From NCBI GenBank assembly GCA_009911175.1, contig QXWX01000142.1, positions 1 through 13,376 of the forward strand: DNA of 13,376 nt, read 5' to 3'. Shown in pieces: positions 491-13,285 of this stretch. The position numbers were made by a program, and so were the translations under genes. How positions within the stretch are numbered: position 1 is the first letter of the stretch; every line of letters begins with the position of its first letter. The notes below the pieces were generated by a model. The model was not told the origin of the DNA and made no database searches. It saw only the letters and a list, made by a program, of their open reading frames with translations. The DNA is from Lachnospiraceae bacterium (GTDB taxonomy: Bacteria; Bacillota_A; Clostridia; Lachnospirales; Lachnospiraceae).

Positions 491-594
491 ATTAAATAAC
501 AGCAATCCATTTGAGGGAAGCAGCTGTTACATTTCCATACAGTTCCTTGGCATATACCATTGGACTTGTTTTCATTCGGAAAGAGAGGGCATAT

Positions 595-2175
595 ATGGGC
601 AGGATATTTAATGTCAGCGCTGCGTGCAAACCGGAATTGCATTATATGGTGAATATGGATGAACAATTGAAACAGATAAAAGCCATGGTAGATCAGGGGC
701 TGTATTTTACCATAAACCGTGCCCGGCAATATGGTAAAACGACTACGCTTCATGCTTTGGAGCGTCTTTTACAAAGAGAATATATTGTAATCAGCCTGGA
801 TTTTCAGATGTTCAGTGCTGCGGACTTTGAGACAGAAAAAGACTTTATTGAAAACTTTTGTATGGAAATTTTAGGGGGTGCTGCGGCAAAAGATATTTCT
901 GCGGATATACGGGGACAGATGGAAGGTTTGGCAGATGGATCTGTACAAAATGACAGGCTATCGGCCCTGTTTCGCTGCCTGAGTAAGTGGTGCCGGCACT
1001 CAGAAAAAAAGATTGTACTGATGATCGACGAGGCAGACAGTGCTTCAAAATATTGTGTGTTTCTTGATTTTTTGGCGCAGTTGAGAGGGTATTATATTAT
1101 CAGAGAAAAGAAGCCGATATTTCAGTCAGTGATCCTTGCAGGAGTATATGATATAAAGAACCTGAAAAATAAGTTCGTAGAAGAGTATAGGATGAACAGC
1201 CCGTGGAACGTTGCGGCAGATTTTGATATAGACCTGCGTCTGAGAGAACATGGGATTGCAGGAATGCTGGCTGATTATGAGGAAGATCACCATACAGGAA
1301 TGAATATTCAGGAAATTGCGGGATTGATTTATGATTATACGTCAGGCTATCCCTTTCTTGTGTCACGCATCTGTAAATTAATGGATGAAAAAGTTTATAG
1401 AGATGCAAATGAATTTGAAAGAAATAAGGCATGGACGAAAGAAGGGTTCTTGACGGCTGTCCGTATGCTGCTGACAGAAGAAAATACATTGTTTGATTCT
1501 CTGGACAACAAGCTGATTGATTATCCGGATCTGAAACAGATGCTTCTGGAATTACTGCTTCAGGGAAATGTGATCGAATACGTACCAGGCAATTTGGGAA
1601 TCCGCATGGCGGCGATGTTTGGTTTTGTGACGATTGAGAATTATATTGTGAATGTCTCAAACCGAATATTTGAGACAAGGCTTTATAACGGATTTCTGGC
1701 GGAAAAGTCGAGACACAATGAGCTGGCGCAGACAGCGGCTTTGGAAAAAAATCAGTTTATTGCAGACGGACGTCTGGATATGGAGCTGGTTCTCCGAAAA
1801 TTTGTCAGCTATTATCAGGATATTTTTGGGGAACTGCAGGAAAAATTTTTGGAGGATAACGGGCGATGTCTGTTCCTTCTGTATATCAAACCGATCATCA
1901 ATGGAACAGGAAATTACTATATTGAAGCAAAAACACGGACAAACCAGCGCACGGATTTGATCATTGATTACTGCGGGGAGCAGCATATTGTAGAGCTAAA
2001 ACTCTGGCGGGGAGAGGAATATAATAAAAGAGGAGAGGAACAGCTTACAGACTACCTGGATCTTTACCATGCGAAGCAGGGATATCTTGTCAGCTTTAAT
2101 TTCAATAAGAAAAAGAAGGTTGGTGTGGAACGGCTTCGGATCAAAGACAAGATTATTTTCGAAGCGGTGGTTTGA
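595..2175 (+). CDS. AAA-type ATPase with C-terminal PD-(D/E)XK nuclease-like domain
   Basis: This 526-residue protein belongs to a family of AAA-like ATPases fused to a PD-(D/E)XK fold that is abundant in gut Firmicutes and Bacteroidetes; its cellular role is not established. The N-terminus MGRIFN and the segment INRARQYGKTTTL (residues 40-52) form the degenerate Walker A of this family, with GKT at 47-49. A Walker B of hydrophobics then D145-E146 lies in VLMIDEAD. Near the C-terminus, D454 in RTDLIID and E467-x-K469 in VELK match the nuclease-like D...ExK signature. The ATG at 595 is chosen over an upstream in-frame TTG at 511 because GAGAGGG (583-589) precedes it at 5 nt and family members start this way. 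The coding sequence is visibly more AT-rich than the MFS gene 15 nt downstream, suggesting separate ancestry. A link to mobile-element or phage defence is possible but unproven. Confidence 0.85.
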   Translation: MGRIFNVSAACKPELHYMVNMDEQLKQIKAMVDQGLYFTINRARQYGKTTTLHALERLLQREYIVISLDFQMFSAADFETEKDFIENFCMEILGGAAAKDISADIRGQMEGLADGSVQNDRLSALFRCLSKWCRHSEKKIVLMIDEADSASKYCVFLDFLAQLRGYYIIREKKPIFQSVILAGVYDIKNLKNKFVEEYRMNSPWNVAADFDIDLRLREHGIAGMLADYEEDHHTGMNIQEIAGLIYDYTSGYPFLVSRICKLMDEKVYRDANEFERNKAWTKEGFLTAVRMLLTEENTLFDSLDNKLIDYPDLKQMLLELLLQGNVIEYVPGNLGIRMAAMFGFVTIENYIVNVSNRIFETRLYNGFLAEKSRHNELAQTAALEKNQFIADGRLDMELVLRKFVSYYQDIFGELQEKFLEDNGRCLFLLYIKPIINGTGNYYIEAKTRTNQRTDLIIDYCGEQHIVELKLWRGEEYNKRGEEQLTDYLDLYHAKQGYLVSFNFNKKKKVGVERLRIKDKIIFEAVV

Positions 2176-2190
2176 GAACAGGTGATGAGT

Positions 2191-3423
2191 ATGAAACTGA
2201 GCGTTTATAAGGATATCATAAAAAACGAAAAAAATTTCCGGTATATGATTCTGGCAAATATGATCAGCCGGTTTGGGGACTCTGTGGATGCCATCGCCTA
2301 TAGCTGGATGGTCTACCAACTGACAGGCTCGGCGGCGTGGCTGTCTGTCATTCTTGGGGTGAATATGGTTCCGACGGTGCTGTTTCAGCCGCTGGGAGGT
2401 GCACTGACGGAATATTTCCGCAAAAAGAGAGTCATTGTCATCTGTGACATTGCCCGGGGAGCTGTGGTCTTTTTCACAGGCATGTGCATGCTGCTGGGAG
2501 TGTTAGAGCCGTGGCATCTGCTTGTCCTGACATTTATAAATTCCTCCATCGAAGCGCTGCGGATTCCAAATGGGCTTGCAATCCTGCCCAAAATCCTCAG
2601 GAAGGAGCATTATAAGGCGGCCATTTCCATGGACCAGGGAGTGCGGAGAACGTCCGAGCTGATCGGCATGGGCTGCGCCGGAATCATCATAGGGTGGATT
2701 GGAATCGGCGGGGCTCTGTTTGTGGATGCGGTGACCTTTCTGGCTTCCGGGCTTCTGCTTTTATTGCTGAGGGTGAATGAGGAGAGCGGGGAAGGGCAGC
2801 AGTTTCAGATGAAGGGGTATGCCGCCGCGCTCAAAGAAGGGTTCGTCTATTTTAAAACGAGTAAGCTGGCAATGATGGTATGTGTGATCTGTGTGGTACA
2901 GAATTTGTGTATGCTTCCCATTGAAAATCTGCAGGCTGCTTATATCAGCGAATACCTGAGACTGGACGTATTTGCGATGTCAGTGGGCGGGACGGCGATT
3001 ACGGCGGGCATGATATCCGGGGCGCTGCTTTTGCCTGTGATCTCCCGGAGAATCCCGGAAAAACAGGTTCTGATCCGGGGAGGAATCCTGATCGGGCCGC
3101 TGTATTTTTGCTATCTCGTGATCGGGATGATTCCTTTCAACGAGGGAAAATATCTTGGCTATTTTATTGCGGCGTTTGCCTTTGGAATGCTAAATTCCGT
3201 GATCGGGGTTACGGTCCAGGTGATCTTTGTGAGCAGCGTGCCGGAAGCGTTTGTGGGGAGGATCAGCGGGATATTTAACGCACTGGCCTGCGGGTCTCTG
3301 CCGGTGGGATCATTTTTGCTTGCAGGCTTGTCGTCTGTATTGGCGATCCGGGAATTGTATCTGCTGACCGGGATTCTGTCGGGGATTCTGTTTCTGCTTA
3401 TGGATCGATCAAAAGGAAAATAG
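2191..3423 (+). CDS. MFS transporter, drug/siderophore exporter type (MFS_3-like)
   Basis: The product is about 410 residues with roughly twelve hydrophobic helices and a short charged N-terminus. MFS hallmarks are visible: RFGDSVDAIAYSWMVYQLTG in the first helix, and the loop after helix 2 contains EYFRKKRVIVICDI, the usual basic loop between helices 2 and 3. The overall pattern resembles the macrolide/enterobactin-exporter branch of MFS, so efflux of a small molecule is likelier than sugar import; the substrate cannot be told. Upstream in-frame GTG (2182) and ATG (2185) codons exist. The ATG at 2191 is preferred because AGGTGA (2180-2185) then sits 5 nt upstream. The gene begins 15 nt after the ATPase stop and is probably cotranscribed. 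A strong terminator follows the stop. Confidence 0.85.
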   Translation: MKLSVYKDIIKNEKNFRYMILANMISRFGDSVDAIAYSWMVYQLTGSAAWLSVILGVNMVPTVLFQPLGGALTEYFRKKRVIVICDIARGAVVFFTGMCMLLGVLEPWHLLVLTFINSSIEALRIPNGLAILPKILRKEHYKAAISMDQGVRRTSELIGMGCAGIIIGWIGIGGALFVDAVTFLASGLLLLLLRVNEESGEGQQFQMKGYAAALKEGFVYFKTSKLAMMVCVICVVQNLCMLPIENLQAAYISEYLRLDVFAMSVGGTAITAGMISGALLLPVISRRIPEKQVLIRGGILIGPLYFCYLVIGMIPFNEGKYLGYFIAAFAFGMLNSVIGVTVQVIFVSSVPEAFVGRISGIFNALACGSLPVGSFLLAGLSSVLAIRELYLLTGILSGILFLLMDRSKGK

Positions 3424-3444
3424 CACAGATATAGAAGCTTTCTG

Positions 3445-3488
3445 AGCCGGGACAAAAAATATGCTATATTTTTTGTCCCGGCTTTTTT
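3445..3488 (+). terminator. Strong Rho-independent terminator after the MFS gene
   Basis: A perfect 17-bp inverted repeat (3445-3461 with 3467-3483) encloses a 5-nt loop and runs into a T tract (3483-3488). The stem is AGCCGGGAC at its base and A/T-rich near the loop. The A run in the left arm means it could also end transcription from the other strand. It separates the ATPase-MFS unit from the flavoprotein operon. Confidence 0.95.
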
Positions 3489-3603
3489 GTATGGAAAATA
3501 AGAGACCAAAATTGATACCACATTAAGAGACTGACAGAGAAGCGGAAATTATAAAAAATATGTAAACTGTCTTCATAAAACAAAAGAACGATGGAGGTAG
3601 AAC

Positions 3604-4566
3604 ATGAAAGTATTAGGAATTTCCTTTGGAAGAAGGAACCAGCGCAGCGACGTGATGGTGAAGGAAGCACTGTTTGCGGCAAAGGCAGCCGGAGCGGAGG
3701 TGCAGTTTATCAATACCGTGCGTATGGACATTGGGCACTGCCGCGCCTGCGACTACTGCAGCCGCCTGCGCGACAAAGGAGAGACGGAGATCCACTGCTG
3801 CATGAAGGACGATTATCATATCCTGGAGGAAGCATGTCTGGACGCGGACGGGATCATCATCGGCGCGCCGGTTTATGCGGTGGGCATCGTCGGACAGTTT
3901 AAGAATTTTGTGGACCGTTTCGGACCGTCCCATGACAGGGCCGCATTGATCGAGGAGAACAAAAAACGGATCGAAGCGGGCAAGCCGGAACTTGACCCGA
4001 GATATTTTAAAGACCGCTATACAGGCTATATTTCCGTAGGCGGGGCGCAGACCCACAACTGGGTATCCCTGGGGCTACCAATGCTGGATCTGTTCAGCTT
4101 TTCCTTCTGCATGAAATGTGTAGGCCATGTGGATGCCTATGACCAGGGCAGAACCGGTCATCCGCTGTTTGACCCGGAACTGATGAAAAAGTGCGCAGAA
4201 CTTGGCAAAGCGGTAGCAGAATCACTTGGAAAACCATATGACGAAGTGGACACCTGGGTTGGAGAGGAAGGCGTATGTCCGGTATGCCATAACCCGCTCC
4301 TCAGTATGAACGGAACTACCCATGTGGAATGCCCCATCTGCGGCATTTGGGGAGATCTGTCTGTGGACGGAGACAAGGTGAAGGTAGAGTGGTCCGAGCA
4401 GGAGATCGCCCGCGCGCGGAATACAAACATCGGAATCTATGAGCACTATAACGAGATCCAGAACATGATCAAGGTCTGTGTACCGAAGCTGGTTGCGAAT
4501 AAAGAGACGCTGCCGAAGATGATGGAAAAATATGAGAAATTCGAGGAAACAATTGAAAATATGTAA
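3604..4566 (+). CDS. Flavodoxin-fold iron-sulfur-type flavoprotein A (NADPH-dependent FMN reductase-like)
   Basis: This is a 320-residue cytoplasmic oxidoreductase of the NADPH-dependent FMN reductase/iron-sulfur flavoprotein superfamily. The N-terminal strand KVLGISFGRRN is the FMN phosphate-binding region. C46-x2-C49-x2-C52-x12-C65 resembles the compact cysteine cluster that binds [4Fe-4S] in iron-sulfur flavoproteins. GAPVYAVGIVGQFKNFVDRF is the second flavin-contact block. Beyond the usual domain there is a C-terminal knuckle C225-x2-C228 and C243-P-I-C246-G, rubredoxin-like or zinc-ribbon-like. It could hold Fe and relay electrons, or just bind Zn. GGAGG at 3593-3597 sits 6 nt before the ATG. 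The promoter is uncertain; CTGACA at 3531-3536 is the best -35 but the -10 is weak. It is the first gene of a four-gene operon, paralogous to the gene at 6105-7031. The substrate is unknown. Confidence 0.85.
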   Translation: MKVLGISFGRRNQRSDVMVKEALFAAKAAGAEVQFINTVRMDIGHCRACDYCSRLRDKGETEIHCCMKDDYHILEEACLDADGIIIGAPVYAVGIVGQFKNFVDRFGPSHDRAALIEENKKRIEAGKPELDPRYFKDRYTGYISVGGAQTHNWVSLGLPMLDLFSFSFCMKCVGHVDAYDQGRTGHPLFDPELMKKCAELGKAVAESLGKPYDEVDTWVGEEGVCPVCHNPLLSMNGTTHVECPICGIWGDLSVDGDKVKVEWSEQEIARARNTNIGIYEHYNEIQNMIKVCVPKLVANKETLPKMMEKYEKFEETIENM

Positions 4567-4582
4567 GTTTGACCTTTGGAAA

Positions 4583-4595
4583 CTGTTCAGAACAG
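4583..4595. promoter_or_regulatory. Short perfect dyad in the 170-bp gap before symporter A
   Basis: CTGTTC, a central A, then GAACAG makes a perfect 6-1-6 dyad, 17 bases after the flavoprotein A stop. The octamer TGCAGAGG then occurs twice, at 4638-4645 and 4656-4663, 18 bp apart. No good promoter is visible in the gap. The dyad could be an operator for internal control of the symporter, but it is short enough to arise by chance. Confidence 0.25.
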
Positions 4596-4736
4596 GATTA
4601 CATATGTATTATGAACCCCATATGAATACGCAGGAACTGCAGAGGTAATCTTCATTGCAGAGGCCGATGTTTGGGGGATTGCGAATGTATCCATGAAGCT
4701 GCTGAACAGACACTCTATACGAAAGAAAGGAAAACG

Positions 4737-6089
4737 ATGATGGAACAAAAAGCAAAGTTAACAATGGGTACCAAGATCGTATATGGACTTGGTGATTTTG
4801 CCAGTCAGCTTGTGTGGACATTTGTTGGAAATTATCTGACTGTTTATTATACGGACGTAGTAGGGCTTGCCCCGGCGATTGCCAGTGCAATCATGCTGAT
4901 TGCAAGAATCTGGGATGGAGTAAATGATCCGATGTTCGGAGCTGTCGCTGAGCGTACAAAATCAAAATGGGGACGTTTTCGTCCTTATATATTGGTCTTT
5001 TCCCCGATACTTGCCATATTCAATGTGCTGGCATTTACGGCTCCGTTCGGCAACAAAACGGCGGGCGTGATTTGGGCGGCATTCTCGTATATCGGCCTGG
5101 GAATGTTATATACGGCTGTAAACTTAAGCTATGGTTCCCTTGCAAATGTCATGACAGCAGATTCACAGGAACGTGTGGAATTAAATTCCTGGAGGATGAT
5201 CGGAACAAACCTGGGATCTTGTTTCCTGAGTGCAATTTCTATGCCTCTGATCTTAAAGTTCAGCCGTGCGGAAGCACCAACCGGAATGGGATATACTCTG
5301 ACAACTATGGTATTTGCAATCTGTTCCCTTCCATTGTTCTTTCTGGTGTTTAAATGCTGTAAAGAAGTGATCCAGCCGCGTCAGGATGTAAATCAGATCC
5401 CGATCAAAACAACGATCAAGGTGGTAGTGACAAACAAACCGCTGCTTATTATCTTCTTTACGCTGCTGGCTTATATGACGGGAATGTTTGGACGTATCGG
5501 GCTTGCGATTTATTACTTTATGTACAATATGCAACGATTTGACCTGATCTCCATTTTGATGATGGCGCCTACGATCTGTGGGGCAGTCGCAATCTTTTTA
5601 ACAAGAAAGCTTGTAAACTATGTGCCGAAAAAAACGCTCGGGGCGATCAGCCTGACCGGATGCGGGATTTCCCTGCTGATCCTTTACATGATCCCGGCTT
5701 CCAATGCGACGATGGTGATCATCATGTCAGGGGTATACGGGCTGTTTTCCTTTGCGGTACCGTTGTTCATGGGAAGTGTTCCGGAATGTATTGACTATGC
5801 GGAATTAAATACCGGAGTGCGTTCCGACGGTACATCCTATGCGTTTACATCTCTGGCAACAAAGTTCGGAAGTGCGTTCGGCGCTTCGGTTGGCCTGATG
5901 ATCATGTCCTATTTCGGATATGTGGCAAATGCAGAGCAGACGGCAGAGGCTTTAAAAGGAATCAACATTGCGGTCAATATTTTCCCGGCAGTCACATTTT
6001 TTGTGGCTCTTGTAATTTGGATGTTCTATCCGATTGATGCGAAAAAAGCAACGGAGATACGGGAAGAATTGGAGAAAAAAGCAGAATAG
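4737..6089 (+). CDS. GPH-family cation symporter A (MelB-like MFS)
   Basis: This 450-residue, twelve-helix membrane protein belongs to the glycoside-pentoside-hexuronide:cation symporter family. The hallmark runs from VYYTDVVGL (36-44) through ARIWDGVNDPMFG (56-68) to KWGRFRPY (77-84). D60 and D64 align with the Na+-binding Asp55 and Asp59 of Salmonella MelB, so cation coupling is probably kept. At the MelB Asp19 sugar-contact position this protein has Q24, and at Asp124 it has N129; the latter is common in the family. AAAGG (4726-4730) precedes ATG 4737 by 6 nt; the adjacent ATG at 4740 is a possible alternative. It is separated by 170 bp from flavoprotein A and followed 15 nt later by flavoprotein B. 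Import of the operon's unknown substrate is inferred. Confidence 0.88.
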   Translation: MMEQKAKLTMGTKIVYGLGDFASQLVWTFVGNYLTVYYTDVVGLAPAIASAIMLIARIWDGVNDPMFGAVAERTKSKWGRFRPYILVFSPILAIFNVLAFTAPFGNKTAGVIWAAFSYIGLGMLYTAVNLSYGSLANVMTADSQERVELNSWRMIGTNLGSCFLSAISMPLILKFSRAEAPTGMGYTLTTMVFAICSLPLFFLVFKCCKEVIQPRQDVNQIPIKTTIKVVVTNKPLLIIFFTLLAYMTGMFGRIGLAIYYFMYNMQRFDLISILMMAPTICGAVAIFLTRKLVNYVPKKTLGAISLTGCGISLLILYMIPASNATMVIIMSGVYGLFSFAVPLFMGSVPECIDYAELNTGVRSDGTSYAFTSLATKFGSAFGASVGLMIMSYFGYVANAEQTAEALKGINIAVNIFPAVTFFVALVIWMFYPIDAKKATEIREELEKKAE

Positions 6090-6104
6090 GGTGAGGAAAT
6101 AAAA

Positions 6105-7031
6105 ATGAGCGATAAGAAAAAAGTATTGGGAATTAATTTTGGACGGGCAAACGTAAATTGTAAAAAGTTATTGACCGCAGCCATGGAAGCCGCAAAACAG
6201 GCGGGAGCGGAAACGGAGATCATTGATACGATCAAAATGGATATCCGGCACTGCATCGGGTGCGGAGCATGTTCACGCATGCTCCAGAGCGGGAAGGGAC
6301 AGATTCAATGTATCCAGAAAGATGACTATGAAGCGCTTTCAGACGCTGTTCTGGCTGCAGACGCGATCATTGTAGCGGCCCCGGTGTATGTACTGGCACC
6401 TACAGGACAATTTAAAAATTTCGTGGATCGTTTTGGACCAGCCCATGATAAGGCGTATATGCTGTTTGAAAATGAACTCCGTAAGGACACGGGCGGAGAA
6501 GAATTGAATCCGGACTGCCTGAAACGCCATTTGGTATCGTATATTTCTGTAGGAGGCGCAACCACGCCGCATTGGGTATCTTATGGACTTCCGGGGATGA
6601 ATTTATTTGGAATGAGCCTGAATATGAAGGTAGTAGACCAATTGGACGCATATGGCTCTTATGTCCCGTACAATCAGAAGGTGCTTCTGGAAAAATCCAG
6701 GCATATCGGAGAACGGATTGTAGAAGCGCTGGATAAAAAGACCAGCGAGATCACATGGGAGTCTGAGCCGGGAATCTGTCCGGTATGTCATTGTAAGGAG
6801 ATGACGCTGAACGGAACCTCCACGGTATGCTGTCCGGTCTGCGGTATCTATGGAACCCTTAAAATGGAAGGCGACCAGGTAAAGGTGGAATTTAGCGAGG
6901 AAGAGAAGAATCGGAGCCGTTTGAAATTTACTGGCGTACTGGAACATCAGGTGGAACAGGGCCGAAAGGACCGGTATCCAAGATTTGACGAATATGTGGA
7001 GAAATTCCGGGCAATGCAGGATGAGATGTAA
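6105..7031 (+). CDS. Flavodoxin-fold iron-sulfur-type flavoprotein B
   Basis: This 308-residue protein is a full-length paralog of the product of 3604-4566. KKVLGINFGRAN is the N-terminal FMN loop. C50-x2-C53-x2-C56-x12-C69 repeats the same cysteine spacing as flavoprotein A. APVYVLAPTGQFKNFVDRFG is the flavin block, and WVSYGLPGMNLF matches WVSLGLPMLDLF in A. The C-terminal knuckle C225/C228 and C243/C246 falls at exactly the same residue numbers as in A. GTGAGGA (6091-6097) provides the ribosome site and the gene starts 15 nt after symporter A, so translation is likely coupled. The two proteins diverge most in residues 120-140 and in the last 50 residues, where substrate or partner choice may differ. 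Reduction of an imported compound is inferred; no partner reductase is nearby. Confidence 0.85.
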   Translation: MSDKKKVLGINFGRANVNCKKLLTAAMEAAKQAGAETEIIDTIKMDIRHCIGCGACSRMLQSGKGQIQCIQKDDYEALSDAVLAADAIIVAAPVYVLAPTGQFKNFVDRFGPAHDKAYMLFENELRKDTGGEELNPDCLKRHLVSYISVGGATTPHWVSYGLPGMNLFGMSLNMKVVDQLDAYGSYVPYNQKVLLEKSRHIGERIVEALDKKTSEITWESEPGICPVCHCKEMTLNGTSTVCCPVCGIYGTLKMEGDQVKVEFSEEEKNRSRLKFTGVLEHQVEQGRKDRYPRFDEYVEKFRAMQDEM

Positions 7032-7120
7032 TATGTTATGCGCACAGTGATTTTGTGTGCGGCGTAGATCTAAAGAATGAGCAAATCTCTTTTAGAAAAA
7101 AAGATGAGATGGAGGGCACT

Positions 7121-8512
7121 ATGAGCAACACAAATTTGAACCAATACGGCACAAAGCCATTGACTTTTGCCAATTATTTTGTATATGGACTGGGTAACTT
7201 TGCATCCCAATTGTCATGGACCATGGTTGGTACATATCTGTCCATTTTCTATACGGACGTATTCGGGCTCGGCGTAGGGGCTGTTGCAATGCTGATGCTG
7301 GTTGCAAAAATCTGGGATGGTATCAATGATCCGATGATGGGAACTCTGATGGAGCGTACTCATACAAAGTGGGGACGTTTCCGCCCATACATTTTTGTCG
7401 GGGCGCCGTTCTTAGTCATTTTCACAATCCTGACCTTTACCGTACCGGGATTTGAAGGGACTGCGAAACTGGTGTATGCCTATGTGACTTATATCGGTCT
7501 GGGAATGGCATACACGATGACAAATGTACCTTATCTGGCATTGCCGACCGTTATGACACGTGACCCGAAAGAGGTAAACAGGCTGAATGCGGCTCAGATG
7601 ATGGGTATGACAGTCGGACAGATCATACTGAACCTGTTTGTGCTGAATCTGGTACTCTGGATCGGAAAAGGCGACCAGGTTGCCGGGTATCAGGGCGCGG
7701 CGGCTCTTCTGGCATTTATCGCGCTGCCGATGTTCTGGGCGGTAGCTGTATTATCTAAGGAGCAGATCACGGTCAAGAAGGAAGATCAGGGCAAGGTCAG
7801 CGAGGGGCTGAAACTGGTGTTCCAGAATAAGAACCTGCTCTGCGCAATGATGTATTCATTTTTTAATATGTTTGGTATCCTGGGACGTATTTCTGTAGCA
7901 GTATTCTTCTATATGCACTGTGTAGGAAATTTTGCCCTGATTTCCGTATTTATGATGATGCAGATGGCAGTGGGAACCATTATTATGCCGTTTTCACCGA
8001 AGTTTTTGGAAAAATTCGGCAGACGGAAAACCGCAATTATCTCCATGGTCATCCAGGGTGTGGCTTTGGTTCTGCTGTATTTTGGACCATCGACGAATAT
8101 CCCGTTTAATTTCCTGTGCATGGTTCTCTATGGAACAGGCTATATTGCAGGTCCCTGCGGTTCCTGTATGATGATTGATGCCATTGATGATTTTGACGAT
8201 AAGTATGGTTACAGAAATGACGGCATGGCATTCTCTTTCCAGGGAACTGCAATCAAGATCGCAACTGCGATTGCAAACTCCGCATTCCTGTTAGTTATGG
8301 GTGCGTTCGGATATGTAGGCGGCGGAGAGATTACGGAGCATGTACAGACCGGTATCAATCTGGCGGCAAACTTACTGCCTGGTATCGTATTCCTTATTGG
8401 AATCATCCCGCTGATGCTGTATGACTTGGATAAGCCGGGATATATGGATGCAGTCAGGGAAAGACTGGTTGCAAGGGATAAGGCGAAGAAAGAAGCGGAA
8501 GGCATGGAATAA
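7121..8512 (+). CDS. GPH-family cation symporter B (MelB-like MFS)
   Basis: This is a 463-residue paralog of symporter A with the same hallmarks: FYTDVFGLGVG (43-53), AKIWDGINDPMMG (62-74) and KWGRFRPY. D66 and D70 align with MelB Asp55 and Asp59, and Q30 replaces Asp19 just as in symporter A. The shared YGLG-(D/N)-FASQ segment suggests that both bind a related ligand that is not melibiose-like. The ATG at 7121 is supported by GGAGGG at 7111-7116. An in-frame ATG at 7109 overlaps that site and is less likely. The 89-bp gap from flavoprotein B contains only a weak CGCACA/TGTGCG hairpin (7041-7061). A charged C-terminal tail of about 20 residues ends the protein. The gene closes the operon, with a terminator 30 bp on. 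Confidence 0.88.
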   Translation: MSNTNLNQYGTKPLTFANYFVYGLGNFASQLSWTMVGTYLSIFYTDVFGLGVGAVAMLMLVAKIWDGINDPMMGTLMERTHTKWGRFRPYIFVGAPFLVIFTILTFTVPGFEGTAKLVYAYVTYIGLGMAYTMTNVPYLALPTVMTRDPKEVNRLNAAQMMGMTVGQIILNLFVLNLVLWIGKGDQVAGYQGAAALLAFIALPMFWAVAVLSKEQITVKKEDQGKVSEGLKLVFQNKNLLCAMMYSFFNMFGILGRISVAVFFYMHCVGNFALISVFMMMQMAVGTIIMPFSPKFLEKFGRRKTAIISMVIQGVALVLLYFGPSTNIPFNFLCMVLYGTGYIAGPCGSCMMIDAIDDFDDKYGYRNDGMAFSFQGTAIKIATAIANSAFLLVMGAFGYVGGGEITEHVQTGINLAANLLPGIVFLIGIIPLMLYDLDKPGYMDAVRERLVARDKAKKEAEGME

Positions 8513-8542
8513 AAAAATCTGTCGTGAAGCGATATACATTTG

Positions 8543-8568
8543 GGCTGCGTTTATACGCAGCCTTTTTT
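8543..8568 (+). terminator. Rho-independent terminator closing the flavoprotein-symporter operon
   Basis: GGCTGCGT (8543-8550), a TTAT loop and ACGCAGCC (8555-8562) form a perfect 8-bp stem followed by six T (8563-8568). It lies 30 bp after the stop of symporter B. Confidence 0.95.
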
Positions 8569-8615
8569 GAACGAGAGGAAGGGGGAGTGAATGAACCATA
8601 GATACTATTCTAATT

Positions 8616-9326
8616 GTTACTATTCACAGTCAATTTCTAGGAGGTACTTATATGTCTTTCCCACAAAAGGTTAAGTCCACACTTTGGGCAATCGTGGATA
8701 ACATGGCCTGTAATACTGCCCAGTTTGTCAAATACCCCGGAAGGGATTTTACACGTGACCGGAAGTTGGGGGGGACAGCTGATCCGTTTCTTCCTCTGCA
8801 TGGAAAGCGGCTGCATCGAACATGAACTGCTGAAATATTTTTATTTCCTGCCCGACGAGGTCCCTACTGCTTTCGCTTTTATCCAGCAGCGGGCAAAACT
8901 CCTCCCGGAAACGTTCCGGCACATCCTTAGCCATTTTAACCTTAGCTTCCTGCCAGAAAGGCTTATGGGCAGGTATTCCCTCATTGCCGCGGACGGATGC
9001 GAATTTAACATTGCCCGCAACCCACAGGCCCCTTCCACTTTTCATCCTGCAAGCGGCAAGTCAAAAAAAGGGTTCAATTCCATCCACACGGTTTCCCTAT
9101 ATAACCTGCTTTCCAAAAAGGTATCTGGATGTAGTCGTACAGCCCGGTAGGCTCAAAAATGAATTTGCCGCCCTCTGCCAGCTATAACGTCTTCGCCCAT
9201 GCGTTTGAGAAAGGCTATTTCTTCGCCATCCGCGTCAAGGATATCAATGTAAAGCGTCTCCTTAGGGCTGACAGCCTGCCCCAACAGATGGACAGGTGGG
9301 CGGACGTGATCCTTACCCGCTCAAGT
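8616..9326 (+). mobile_element. Left part of a decayed IS4-family insertion sequence
   Basis: The left end is marked by GTTACTATTCACA at 8616-8628, nearly identical to the MITE terminal repeat at 235-247. A GGAGG ribosome site (8640-8644) and a broken transposase follow. The right half, including the catalytic C-terminal region and the right terminal repeat, is absent. The IS sequence stops at about 9321-9326, where it joins a truncated toxin gene on the other strand. Because the right end is gone, no target duplication can be seen. Confidence 0.8.
8652..9326 (+). pseudogene. IS4-family transposase, frameshifted and truncated
   Basis: The reading starts at ATG 8652 (MSFPQKVKSTLWAIVDNM) and resembles IS4-family DDE transposases common in Lachnospiraceae, which are usually a little over 400 residues. 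The frame breaks in a run of seven G (8768-8774) and resumes as CMESGCIEHELLKYF and LIAADGCEFNIARNP, the block that carries the first catalytic Asp. A second shift lies in the A run near 9115-9119, after which YLDVVVQPGRLKNEFA continues. Between ALCQ and SYNVFAHAF about 20 residues of the expected PIF-ADRG region are deleted, removing the second Asp. The protein stops being recognisable after ILTRS, so roughly half is missing, including the catalytic Glu. Both shifts look like single-base gains in homopolymers. The gene is dead even if one of them is a sequencing error. Confidence 0.85.
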
Positions 9327-9606
9327 TGCAACGATTACTTCCAACTCGCCGAAATGAAGCTTCCCATACATGCTTTTAACCATTGCGGCGTTCTTTACTT
9401 TATAGATTTTCAAATATCCTTTTGAAACATACTCCTTGATTTCAATAAGCTCTTTCTGATGAACGGATGAACCGGCGCAAAGCTCTCTGAATACGGCATC
9501 AGGAAGAACGATTTCATCAAACAACTCCCATAAGAGGGATAATCTTCCTAATTGATAGCAGCCCTATGATTGGGCTGGTATTGCATATGACTTTTTCGCT
9601 TTTCAT
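9321..9606 (-). pseudogene. PIN-domain toxin (DUF3368-type), frameshifted and truncated
   Basis: Reading leftward from ATG at 9604-9606, MKSEKVICNTSPIIGLLSIR shows the opening of a PIN-type nuclease, where NTSP is the usual first metal-binding region. The frame is lost around 9531-9540 and resumes as LWELFDEIVLPDAVFRELCA and later KLHFGELEVIV, the second acidic block. The sequence ends at the junction with the IS4 remnant at about 9321-9330, so the C-terminal part of the domain is missing. It begins within 2 nt of the antitoxin stop, the standard coupled layout. Family assignment rests on pattern recognition. The break is probably from IS4 insertion followed by deletion. Confidence 0.7.
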
Positions 9607-9607
9607 A

Positions 9608-9892
9608 TTATTCCTCTGATAAATTAGCAATTGCGAGTTCATCCATCTGCATTTCTTCTTCTGAGTATCTGCTCCATGGAATATCATGAGCTTTTAGAAA
9701 ATCCATAAAATCCCAGATGTTTTTTCCGGCCAGCTCTGCGGCTTTTTCTAAAGTAACAATTCCAGACACAAACATGCCTGCTACAATGGAGATCGTTACC
9801 TTATCATCCATCGTCTTTCCTGCTTTCATAGTATATAGATACGGTAATAAAGTTTTGGGTATTTCTACATCTACTATATTCTGTTCCATCAT
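9608..9892 (-). CDS. UPF0175-type antitoxin, intact partner of the broken PIN toxin
   Basis: This 94-residue protein starts MMEQNIVDVEIPKTLLPYL and contains VSIVAGMFVSGIVTLEKAAELAGKN-like features: a helix-turn-helix-like segment (EKAAELAGKNIWDFMDFLKAHDI) followed by an acidic C-terminal tail. That pattern fits UPF0175, a family commonly encoded next to DUF3368 PIN-domain toxins. It would bind and neutralise the toxin and probably repress its own promoter. GAGGGA (about 9895-9900, minus strand) is the ribosome site. The next ATG, one codon later, is an alternative start. Its stop lies 1 nt from the toxin ATG. With the toxin disrupted, the antitoxin is now an orphan that may still act in trans on related toxins. 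Confidence 0.75.
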   Translation of the reverse strand: MMEQNIVDVEIPKTLLPYLYTMKAGKTMDDKVTISIVAGMFVSGIVTLEKAAELAGKNIWDFMDFLKAHDIPWSRYSEEEMQMDELAIANLSEE

Positions 9893-9925
9893 CGTCCCTC
9901 GCTTTCTTGATTAAGAAGTGTTTAT

Positions 9926-10609: not shown

Positions 10610-10644
10610 GGAAATGAATGAAAATAGATCGGAGGGAAACAGCA

Positions 10645-11754
10645 ATGAAGTATATGATTCAGGATAATCAGGCAGGATTTGTATTAAAGAACGGGATCTT
10701 TCAGAAAATGATCACCGCCGGGACGTACCATTTTTCTAAAATAGCAGGTTACAGGGTGGAGATTGAGGAGATGACAGGGGAAGTGGATTATATGGACGTT
10801 CCCTATCCGGTTCTTTCGAGAGATCCTGCATTTCTGAAGGCCACCGTACACATGGAGATTCCGGACGGCTCCATTGGATTTCTCTACATAAACGGAAAAC
10901 TTTCCTCCTATGCAAACCGGAAGGAGTATACCTTCTGGAATGTATTTGACAAGCATGAGATCCGGATCGTGCCGATGACGGAAACGATGACGGGGCCGGA
11001 GGTGTCCAGGCAGATGCTTTCTCTTGTTCCCGGAAAGCTCTATACGGAGGTAAAGGTAGGGGAAGGGGAGACCGGGCTGGTGTATTATGACAACGTTTTG
11101 CAGAAGCCATTTTCCAGGGGGATCTACCGTTTCTGGAATTACAAGCACAGCATTTCCTATAAGGTGCTGGACATGAAGCAGAGGGAACTGGATATTGTCG
11201 GGCAGGAGATCCTCACGAAGGATAAGATCGGGATCAGGATGAACGTTTCCTGTATCTATAAGATCCGGGACGCCGTAGAATTTGCCGCAGCCATCTCGGA
11301 TCTGAAGGGCCAGCTGCACTCCGCGGTGCAGCTGGCGATCCGGGAGATCGTGGGGAATTATAAGCTGGATGAGATTCTGGAGGCTAAAGAGCGGATCTCC
11401 GCAGAGATCTATGAGGCGTTAAAGGACAGAGAGGGGATGTTCTGTGTGCATTTCCTGACAGCCGGGATCAAGGACATCATCCTGCCAGGCGAGATCCGGG
11501 CGATCATGAACTCCGTGCTGGTGGCGGAAAAGGCCGCCCAGGCAAATGTGATCTCCAGGCGGGAAGAGGTGGCATCCACCAGGTCGCTGCTCAACACGGC
11601 CAAGCTGATGGAGGAAAATCAGACGCTCTATAAGCTGAAGGAGCTGGAGTATCTGGAGCGGATCTGCGGGAAGGTAGGCGAGATTTCCGTCAATGGAAAC
11701 GCGGGAATCGTGGAGCAGTTAGGCCGTCTGATGGGGGCGGAGCGGGCGGTGTGA
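10645..11754 (+). CDS. SPFH/Band 7 (slipin-type) domain protein with N-terminal repeats
   Basis: This 369-residue protein carries an SPFH/Band 7 domain at about residues 184-330, including LTKDKIGIRMNVSCIYKIRD and LQLAIREIVG-like sequence (VQLAIREIVGNYKLDEIL), then a helical tail rich in charged residues that ends in EQLGRLMGAERAV. SPFH proteins oligomerise into rings or scaffolds, often at membranes; no transmembrane helix is visible here, so it may be peripheral. Residues 1-182 look like three diverged copies of one unit: QAGFVLKNGIFQ...GTYHF (7-45), SIGFLYINGKLS...EYTFW (74-112) and ETGLVYYDNVLQ...GIYRFW (140-182). An in-frame ATG at 10618 exists, but ATG 10645 has GGAGGG (10631-10636) 8 nt upstream. 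The gene stands alone, convergent with the symporter gene on the other strand. Its function is unknown. Confidence 0.8.
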   Translation: MKYMIQDNQAGFVLKNGIFQKMITAGTYHFSKIAGYRVEIEEMTGEVDYMDVPYPVLSRDPAFLKATVHMEIPDGSIGFLYINGKLSSYANRKEYTFWNVFDKHEIRIVPMTETMTGPEVSRQMLSLVPGKLYTEVKVGEGETGLVYYDNVLQKPFSRGIYRFWNYKHSISYKVLDMKQRELDIVGQEILTKDKIGIRMNVSCIYKIRDAVEFAAAISDLKGQLHSAVQLAIREIVGNYKLDEILEAKERISAEIYEALKDREGMFCVHFLTAGIKDIILPGEIRAIMNSVLVAEKAAQANVISRREEVASTRSLLNTAKLMEENQTLYKLKELEYLERICGKVGEISVNGNAGIVEQLGRLMGAERAV

Positions 11755-11785: not shown

Positions 11786-13204
11786 TTACCGCAAGGGTTT
11801 TGATGTCCAATAATCAACATCGTGGGGAAGCCCGATCTCTTTTGCACAGAAGAAAGGAGTGTCCTTCCTGCGAAGCTGCTCCTCATAGTCCTGTAAGGCT
11901 TTCAGAGCGTATTTGCCGAGAAGGAGGATTACCGGCATATTGATGATGGTCATGAAGCCCATAGTCACATCGGCGATATCCCACAAAAGGTCGGCGCTCA
12001 ATCCGGCGCCCGCGAAGATCACCAGCGAGGCGATGATCCGATAGACGATCATAAAGCATTTGCCGGGCGTATGTCCGAACATATAATTGAAAACATGGTC
12101 CACATAAAAGAGATTTCCCAACAGGGTGGTAAACGCGAACAGGACCATGGATACGGTGATAAAGAGAGGCCCGAACATCCCCAGCGTACTCTGCAGTGCC
12201 TCCTGTACATATGGTGCGCCTGAGAGCGCTTCTGTGGGTTCAATCCCGGAACACATACACATAAATGCGGTTGCAGAGCACAAAAGAAGCGTATCGATGA
12301 ACACAGACAAAACCTGCACCAGGCCCTGGGCAGCCGGATGGTTCACATCTGCGGAAGCCGACGCGTTGGGCGCGGAGCCGACGCCGGCTTCATTGCTGTA
12401 GAGTCCCCGCTTGATCCCGTACATGACGCAGGAACCGCTGAAGCCGCCCATAATGGACCGGAAGTCAAAGGCTTCGCTGAAGATGCGGGAGATCACGGCG
12501 GGCAGATAGGTAATGTTCATAACGATCACCACCAGGGAGACCAGCACATAGGCAAGTCCCATCATGGGAACCATTACACTGGTGACCCGGACAATACGCT
12601 GTCCGCCGCCCAGCAGGCAGTATCCCACAATGACCGCAAGCACCAGCCCGATGATCCAGGGGGTCAGATTCGGATCATAAAAGCTGTAGGATGCGAAGGT
12701 GGACTGCAGGTTGTAAGAGGCCAGCATGTTGAATCCGAATCCATAGGTCAGAATCAGGCATACGGAAAATACGAGTGCCAGCGGACGGCTGTGGAGGGCT
12801 GCTTCAATATAATAGGCAGGCCCACCGTAGCTTCCGTGTGGGCCGCGTTTTTTGTAGATCTGGGCCAGGGTGCTTTCGATAAAAGCGGAGGCAGCGCCGA
12901 TGACGGCAATGATCCACATCCAGAAAACAGATCCGAAGCCGCCCAGGCAGATGGCCGTTGACACGCCGATGATATTGCCGGTGCCTACACGGGATGCCGT
13001 AGAAACCATGAGCGCCTGGAAGCTGGAAACCTTGTCGTCCCCGCCGGCAGGCTTTTCCATGATGGCCCGGAAAGCCTGCCCGATCATGCGGAACTGAACA
13101 AAGCGCGTCCGAACCGTGAAGTAAATACCTCCTGCCAGCAATAAGATGATCAGCAGATAGCCGTACATAAAATCACTGATCCATGAAACAATATTTGAAA
13201 TCAT
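11786..13204 (-). CDS. Alanine/glycine:cation symporter (AGCS family)
   Basis: This 472-residue polytopic membrane protein belongs to the AGCS family (PF01235), which imports alanine or glycine with Na+ or H+. The family signatures are clear: STASRVGTGNIIGVSTAI (69-84) contains the GTGNI block, GGPAYYIE lies at 127-134, and SNEAGVGSAPNASA is at 270-283. Length is typical. An upstream in-frame start at 13285 would add 27 residues that do not resemble a membrane protein of this family and would run over the -10 region. ATG 13204 has GGAGG (13211-13215) 6 nt before it and is chosen. The promoter and a CodY-like box lie directly upstream, consistent with nutrient-controlled amino acid uptake. The gene is transcribed alone toward the SPFH gene. 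Confidence 0.93.
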   Translation of the reverse strand: MISNIVSWISDFMYGYLLIILLLAGGIYFTVRTRFVQFRMIGQAFRAIMEKPAGGDDKVSSFQALMVSTASRVGTGNIIGVSTAICLGGFGSVFWMWIIAVIGAASAFIESTLAQIYKKRGPHGSYGGPAYYIEAALHSRPLALVFSVCLILTYGFGFNMLASYNLQSTFASYSFYDPNLTPWIIGLVLAVIVGYCLLGGGQRIVRVTSVMVPMMGLAYVLVSLVVIVMNITYLPAVISRIFSEAFDFRSIMGGFSGSCVMYGIKRGLYSNEAGVGSAPNASASADVNHPAAQGLVQVLSVFIDTLLLCSATAFMCMCSGIEPTEALSGAPYVQEALQSTLGMFGPLFITVSMVLFAFTTLLGNLFYVDHVFNYMFGHTPGKCFMIVYRIIASLVIFAGAGLSADLLWDIADVTMGFMTIINMPVILLLGKYALKALQDYEEQLRRKDTPFFCAKEIGLPHDVDYWTSKPLR

Positions 13205-13256
13205 AATCTTCCTCCTGTCTTTTGAGTACGATGGCCGAATGACAAAAACTATGTTT

Positions 13257-13285
13257 ATTATACAGAAAGCGCTGCGGGAAAGCAA
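13257..13285 (-). promoter_or_regulatory. Sigma-A promoter of the AGCS symporter
   Basis: On the minus strand a perfect TATAAT (13257-13262) is preceded by exactly 17 bp and TTGCTT (13280-13285). The distance from the -10 to the start codon is 52 bp. The weak -35 fits a regulated promoter. Confidence 0.75.

Follow-up and report, generated by a model that had tools for sequence, protein, structure and literature searches.

Positions 1 to 13,376 of contig QXWX01000142.1 from a Lachnospiraceae bacterium (the 13,376-bp stretch analysed here, hereafter the window) carry an array of four plus-strand genes, which encode a flavoprotein, a symporter, a second flavoprotein and a second symporter, in the order reported by a first-pass annotation of this DNA. 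The flavoproteins FLR-A (3604..4566; 320 amino acids) and FLR-B (6105..7031; 308 amino acids) both contain the FMN_red domain (PF03358; E 3e-12 and 2e-16, respectively). FLR-A resembles flavone reductase (FLR) and is of the WrbA type with a C-terminal four-cysteine ribbon; it is the flavoprotein of the two that is conserved widely, while FLR-B, also FLR-like, belongs to another subfamily. GPH-A (4737..6089) and GPH-B (7121..8512) are identified as GPH:cation symporters with matches to MelB, as they contain the MFS_2 domain (PF13347; E 5e-88 and 2e-91) and score 369.6 and 306.9 bits against TIGR00792, the NCBIfam GPH family with a curated cut-off of 231.35 bits. Judged from homologue lengths and purine-rich motifs upstream, they likely start at 4737 (450 amino acids) and 7121 (463 amino acids) rather than at the longest open-reading-frame starts 4671 and 7055. 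The homology claimed within each pair is confirmed by the common Pfam families and by identities of 45% between the flavoproteins and 36% between the symporters. The terminators said to bound the array were likewise found on the plus strand, at 3444..3484 (19-pair stem followed by a T-run) and 8542..8563 (9-pair stem followed by a T-run), though the pattern scan is noisy (23 terminator-like sites in the window vs 12.5 ± 4.0 in shuffles); an Rfam scan of the window returned nothing at gathering level. The window is close to Schaedlerella arabinosiphila, whose genome (G001) is the nearest, with 69% of sampled words in common, and contains the same four-gene array (locus L081), 97.8% identical by blastn across window positions 3427-8568.

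Structure 7d38 (FLR, the flavone reductase from Flavonifractor plautii) is the sole PDB sequence match of FLR-A (E 3.7e-39) and the better of two for FLR-B (E 2.1e-39). As aligned with residues 1-285 of the 7d38 chain, FLR-A shares 32.3% identity over 288 columns (89% coverage of FLR-A) and FLR-B 30.6% over 281 columns (90% coverage of FLR-B), with pairwise E values below 1e-40 for both. Both proteins pass the screen given in the available text of the FLR paper (identity ≥30%, coverage ≥80% and E ≤1e-10 to F. plautii FLR; PMC7862272). The AlphaFold2 model of FLR-A (pLDDT 94) has 7d38 as its top Foldseek match (TM 0.79/0.87, E 1.5e-24), far ahead of the next one (E 6e-8), and a WrbA-like N-terminal domain followed by a C-terminal beta/helix tail is present in FLR-A according to the model and in FLR-B according to sequence only. 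In a residue map of 98 rows including both proteins, W149 and H271 (FLR numbering) are invariant (98/98), while I275 is found in 44/44 A-type rows (defined below) and 50/54 other rows, FLR-B having a gap at this position. D103, G106, V144 and G146 are kept in both proteins; among the activity-critical residues G106, W149, H271 and I275, FLR-A possesses all four and FLR-B the first three only. The membership of FLR-A and FLR-B in the FLR family is thus well supported.

The first-pass annotation had called the flavoproteins iron-sulfur type, an assignment that finds no support here. Iron-sulfur flavoproteins bind their cluster through the compact motif CX2CX2CX4-7C (X represents any amino acid), and the four N-terminal cysteines conserved in FLR-A (C46, C49, C52 and C65) and FLR-B follow the spacing CX2CX2CX12C, which also occurs in FLR. 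The main text of PMC7862272 contains no occurrence of "iron-sulfur", "Fe-S" or "cysteine".

GPH symporters typically carry sugars. In both symporters the WDxxNDP motif aligns with MelB and the aspartate pair D55/D59, which we take to be the cation site of MelB, is retained, while the positions aligned to MelB D19 and D124, presumably sugar-site residues, are occupied by glutamine and asparagine, respectively. GPH-A and GPH-B are thus not melibiose-like, and the substitutions are in keeping with an unusual predicted substrate.

The gene neighbourhoods of relatives were surveyed in a genome collection described as covering 84,980 species, where a scan with five aligned flavoproteins yielded 298 matching stretches, 183 of which encode a relative; the best 80 of these (77 loci) were analysed, with neighbour genes called by profiles built from clusters in the same loci. 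A-type FLR genes are defined by at least 60% identity to FLR-A (n = 46, 45 with a downstream gene in the fetched DNA), and several A-type loci share one genome and hence are not all independent. A same-strand GPH gene lies directly downstream of 32 of the 45 A-type genes, at 1-305 bp, and GPH genes make up 38/173 of the genes within two places of A-type FLR vs 1/233 at six or more places. The flavoprotein-symporter co-occurrence that the first-pass annotation proposed to look for is thus borne out, and the possibility raised there that such flavoproteins usually sit beside unrelated genes does not hold for the A type. Genes of C-glycoside deglycosidase (CGD) occur in the fetched locus of 22/46 A-type genes, and a downstream GPH gene, a CGD gene in the locus or both are found in 40 of the 45 cases; counted by NCBI-named genus, the FLR-GPH pair is present in 8/12 and CGD in 8/12. 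The 46 non-A-type FLR genes are directly followed by GPH in 2 cases, by the CGD beta subunit (CGDB) in 3 and by a carboxylesterase in 5, with CGD in the locus of 17/46.

The recurrent neighbour families, whose Pfam identities were taken from one or two representatives each, comprise AraC regulators fused to GH39, Gfo/Idh oxidoreductases, CGDB (PF19906), carboxylesterases, xylose-isomerase-like TIM barrels (the CGD alpha subunit and a second type), old yellow enzyme (OYE)-type reductases, NuoG-like and NuoF-like proteins, and FAD reductases whose nearest NCBIfam entry is vinylphenol reductase VprA, below its cut-off. The CGDB representative matches PF19906 (E 1.1e-36) and, in the PDB, DgpB (E 1.5e-40), where only a DUF6379 chain scores better (4.4e-48). 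Locus L240 reads isomerase, Gfo, CGD beta, CGD alpha, Gfo, FAD reductase, a 388-amino-acid gene, NuoG-like, NuoF-like, AraC/GH39, FLR (93% to FLR-A) and GPH (81% to GPH-B), and L243 contains the same set minus the isomerase in its fetched 20 kb. L238 has AraC/GH39, FLR, GPH, CGD beta, CGD alpha, FAD reductase, NuoG-like and NuoF-like, with no Gfo or isomerase gene within its 20 kb, while L233 and L235 carry AraC/GH39, GPH (45-46% to GPH-A), Gfo, CGD alpha, CGD beta, FLR (37% to FLR-A or FLR-B), isomerase and Gfo. On two Treponema contigs, FLR-like genes adjoin CGD genes. The array itself is indeed without a hydrolase, as described, although in many relatives genes like those of the array have CGD or carboxylesterase genes next to them or not far away.

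AraC/GH39 proteins are concentrated near A-type FLR (34/173 genes within two places vs 6/233 farther away), and the GH39 part of these regulators may be a glycoside sensor. Fusions of about 800 amino acids recur beside FLR, GPH and CGD genes in L063, L067, L069, L080, L209, L240 and others. NuoG-like genes occur in 16/77 loci, and a NuoG-like or NuoF-like gene lies within three genes of FLR in 8, counts that have no chance control; the NuoG-like/NuoF-like pair was seen near FLR-like and often FAD reductase genes in L066 (2208-7368), L240, L129 and L143. Genes of the carboxylesterase family are immediate neighbours of other FLR copies (L064, L072, L076, L131, L132 and L134), which suggests ester substrates for these copies.

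The link between FLR and CGD shows at locus scale and also at genome scale. With each genus represented by one genome, 26 of 299 Lachnospiraceae genomes contain FLR-like genes (E ≤1e-30, at most seven candidates being scored per genome), 25 contain CGDB genes above the cut-off and 17 contain both, vs 2.2 expected (Fisher p 1.2e-15). In 8, 13 and 14 of these 17 genomes an FLR-like gene lies within 3, 10 and 20 kb of CGDB, respectively, where random placement predicts 0.4, 1.1 and 2.0. CGDB is present in 16/16 genomes whose best FLR match is ≤1e-100 and in 1/10 weaker genomes. G001 contains five strong FLR matches and three CGDB matches (C1:500577, C1:4837604 and C1:5695429), the second of which sits in a row of AraC/GH39, GPH, Gfo, CGD alpha, CGD beta and Gfo genes. 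In G001 the row of Gfo, CGD alpha, CGD beta and Gfo genes at L209 begins with a GPH gene from the sister group (90/85) of the GPH-A clade.

The four-gene order had been explained as a tandemly duplicated two-gene module, an origin ruled out by the FLR and GPH trees together with the two-gene junctions of relatives. In the 99-row FLR tree, FLR-A lies inside a 40-row A-type clade (100/98) and FLR-B outside a 78-row clade (98/93, starred) containing FLR-A; FLR-B and F. plautii FLR are long branches, which limits the placement of both. In the 58-row GPH tree, GPH-B belongs to a 29-row clade (100/100), 27 members of which directly follow an A-type FLR, the other two being the GPH-B genes of the window and G001, which follow FLR-B. 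GPH-A falls into a separate 7-row clade (100/99), in which every other member adjoins FLR and/or CGD genes or is one gene away from them; this clade is sister (90/85, not starred) to two GPHs within CGD gene rows. In neither tree are the two copies mutual nearest relatives, and GPH-B groups with the direct partners of A-type FLR.

Close relatives carry FLR-A directly followed by GPH-B: the homologous stretches are 72 bp apart in L082 (G004) and 58 bp apart in L126 (G008), vs about 2.5 kb in the window, and the two-gene form is also present in G011. Against L082 and L126 the blastn edges lie at 4564/4566 and 7095/7099, so that the plus-strand segment 4567..7094, comprising GPH-A and FLR-B, is the putative insertion. 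The simplest history would be that the GPH-A/FLR-B unit came between the older partners FLR-A and GPH-B; loss of the segment in other relatives is less likely, because most A-type relatives have the two-gene state. The compact four-gene order was seen only in the window and S. arabinosiphila, with locus L095 of Anaerobium acetethylicum as the nearest parallel (FLR, a 198-amino-acid gene, GPH 55% identical to GPH-A, AraC/GH39, FLR, and GPH 80% identical to GPH-B), where two FLR copies with their own GPH each are spread across about 10.5 kb. These two copies are sisters of the A-type (100/98), and therefore the FLR gene did duplicate there. Beyond G001, an order-wide search of 392 genomes identified a single FLR-B orthologue with context (L227; 76%; Agathobacter) and two further matches only 48-49% identical, while a search with P0037 through 391 genomes of the class matched G001 alone. 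Named genomes contain further FLR-B orthologues, as 60-87% matches. At G008:C1:102176-103000, between two GPH matches, lies an FLR-like copy that is interrupted by five in-frame stops and seems to have decayed.

We consider it somewhat probable that, in a Schaedlerella-like member of the Lachnospiraceae, the array provides the import and reduction steps of polyphenol-glycoside catabolism. The GPH symporters would import plant polyphenol glycosides, probably including C-glycosides, as the linkage to CGD suggests. A Gfo/Idh oxidoreductase and the two-subunit CGD, whose genes lie at other sites of the nearest genome and, in many relatives, in the neighbourhood, would then strip the sugar without hydrolysis, in the manner of DgpA/DfgE, which oxidise C-glucosides, and DgpBC/DfgAB, which cleave the C-C bond, according to the available parts of PMC11170127 and PMC8563793. 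The FLR-like FMN enzymes may hydrogenate the aglycone at its activated C=C bond, just as FLR of F. plautii does with flavones (PMC7862272, in the text available); a flavone-type substrate is predicted for FLR-A and FLR-B by analogy, and the same portion of that paper states that apigenin was converted by all 11 further FLR homologues tested. The NuoG/NuoF-like pair near FLR in some relatives may supply the electrons, and the second pair, GPH-A/FLR-B, perhaps adds a second substrate. The import-and-reduce system proposed by the first-pass annotation is therefore supported in its FLR-GPH pairing and rejected in its duplicated origin. More tentatively, with somewhat less confidence than doubt, GPH and FLR-like pairs could form a widespread import-and-reduce branch of the pathway by which Lachnospiraceae break down polyphenol C-glycosides, a connection not made before. 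If this is true, they would provide a candidate C-glycoside importer family, and the neighbouring NuoG/NuoF-like pair would become a candidate FLR electron donor. As a prediction from gene context, the array makes a strong and testable case.

Several observations weigh against this interpretation. The window encodes no CGD or Gfo/Idh gene, only FLR and GPH being found among the profiled families, so that the CGD alpha and beta genes typical of a dgp/dfg-type cluster are absent from it, and the nearest CGDB gene in G001 is about 71 kb from the array. CGDB is not enriched beside A-type FLR (4/173 genes within two places, 6/233 six or more away), and the surveyed loci were themselves picked by similarity to FLR-A and four paralogues. 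The ≤1e-100 cut behind the 16/16 count was set after the data had been seen. Among 78 scored FLR matches, 17/35 strong and 0/43 weak (distant) ones lie within 10 kb of CGDB, and the CGD link thus holds for the A/B-like part of the FLR family but not for every FLR-like gene. Full-length FLR-like matches occur in 4/12 genomes of the genus. The L227 orthologue of FLR-B sits between GH3 and ThuA genes, with no GPH or CGD gene in the 14 kb fetched around it. At the protein level, FLR residues E91, K92, S147, M10, S14 and N15 are not conserved in FLR-A or FLR-B, and the absence of I275 from FLR-B points to an odd pocket. Homology is no guarantee of substrate, because a second F. plautii Flr is without apigenin activity (PMC8398226, from the part available). 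Phloretin hydrolase (PF18089) is absent from 6/7 genomes tested, including G001, which leaves the known FLR-Fcr-Phy route incomplete in those six; the exception, with a single match, is G004 of the same genus. A complete flavone route of this kind is not supported for G001. In G001, FLR-A is preceded at a distance of about 8 kb by an OYE-type gene of 657 amino acids; its best NCBIfam entries (BaiCD, mycofactocin-linked OYE and bilirubin reductase) are all below their cut-offs, and it could be Fcr-like.

The alternative that survives best, although unlikely, is that the symporters serve the uptake of ordinary plant sugars or O-glycosides (e.g. xylosides sensed by AraC/GH39), with the flavoproteins as redox accessories or electron sinks. 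Such a role would fit the usual cargo of GPH symporters, the concentration of AraC/GH39 beside A-type FLR and the other FLR copies adjoining carboxylesterases or GH3, but the co-occurrence and linkage with CGD are far above expectation, and the glutamine and asparagine at the MelB D19/D124 positions, with D55/D59 kept, point away from a melibiose-like carrier. It is rather improbable that the flavoproteins act generally on quinones or xenobiotics, as WrbA/azoreductase-like reductases, with symporters unrelated to their substrate: PF03358 is broad and the fold matches after 7d38 are FMN reductases, azoreductases and quinone reductases, but the gap between 7d38 and these matches is wide, the C-terminal histidine (H271 of FLR) is present in every row of the residue map, and the FLR-A/GPH-B pairing persists across genera. 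Least probable is reduction of the unsaturated keto sugar released by CGD instead of the aromatic aglycone. In its favour, the available parts of the literature describe a hexose enediolone as product of deglycosylation (PMC10539306) and a 2-hydroxy-3-keto-glycal from an O-glycoside enzyme (PMC10628242), phloretin hydrolase is mostly missing as noted above, and conservation is slightly higher for A-type FLR than for its partners, with pairwise medians of 79% for A-type FLR vs 73% for GPH-B (91 pairs, 14 hand-picked loci) and 68% for FLR vs 62% for CGD alpha and 51% for CGD beta (171 pairs, 19 loci). Against it, the diversification of FLR paralogues within one genome fits varied aglycones better than a single constant sugar product, and W149, H271 and I275, used by FLR around the flavone, are conserved in FLR-A.

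The DNA flanking the array encodes several further genes. An exporter-like gene of the major facilitator superfamily (2182-3423, plus strand) stands directly 5' of the array and is also found upstream of FLR-A in G004 and G008. It is preceded by an AAA_35-type ATPase with a PDDEXK_3 nuclease-like domain (511-2175, plus strand), and similar DNA precedes the array in G001 (L081) and the pair in G008 (L126), not in L082. In G001 an insertion of about 5.1 kb (L081 4707-9824), encoding a LysR regulator, a class-V aminotransferase and others, is located just 5' of FLR-A, its edges overlapping by 5 bp in the window (3427-3431). Downstream, 8569-9922 has no blastn counterpart at L081; two short consecutive open reading frames at 8725-9425 (plus strand) are decayed-transposase-like by eye, neither having a Pfam match. 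A UPF0175 protein (9608-9892, minus strand), an SPFH/Band_7 protein (10618-11754, plus strand) and a sodium:alanine symporter (AgcS; 11786-13285, minus strand) are flanking and apparently unrelated. We take S. arabinosiphila to be the Altered Schaedler Flora strain ASF502, in which case mouse work on this species would be feasible.

As compared with F. plautii FLR (7d38; PMC7862272), the flavoproteins have a similar length, the same fold with an FMN domain and C-terminal extension, W149/H271 and eight aligned cysteines in common; they differ in being only about one third identical (31-32%), in several FMN-contact residues and in the lack of I275 in FLR-B, and the main text of that paper contains no word starting with "transporter" or "symporter". 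The symporters belong with MelB to the TIGR00792/MFS_2 family and retain the cation-site aspartate pair, but they carry glutamine and asparagine at D19/D124 and are partnered here by a reductase instead of a glycosidase. The FLR-Fcr-Phy row of Clostridium butyricum (PMC11868195, in the part available) likewise places an FLR homologue within a proposed polyphenol-reducing gene row, but a symporter partner is not described in that part, whereas the partner here is GPH and, in many relatives, CGD, and G001 is without phloretin hydrolase. The main text of PMC12724307 contains no "transporter", "MFS", "uptake" or "gene cluster", and in the accessible portions of the open-licence PMC literature no paper was found linking FLR to GPH symporters or placing FLR in CGD loci; FLR, GPH and CGD are each known. 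FLR and CGD genes are listed together in Catenibacillus genomes in the available part of PMC11170127. Like the C-glycoside catabolic clusters dgp (Dorea strain PUE) and dfg (Eubacterium cellulosolvens), many relatives of the array contain genes for Gfo/Idh and for both CGD subunits, here close to FLR and GPH, but the sources as available do not list FLR among the components of either cluster, and the window is without CGD. Transporters and accessory genes whose function is unclear belong to the dgp cluster (PMC8398226, text in part), and FLR can not use NAD(P)H directly, its electron chain being called unexplored (PMC7862272, text in part); for both the transport role and the electron source, the FLR-GPH pair together with CGD names candidates.

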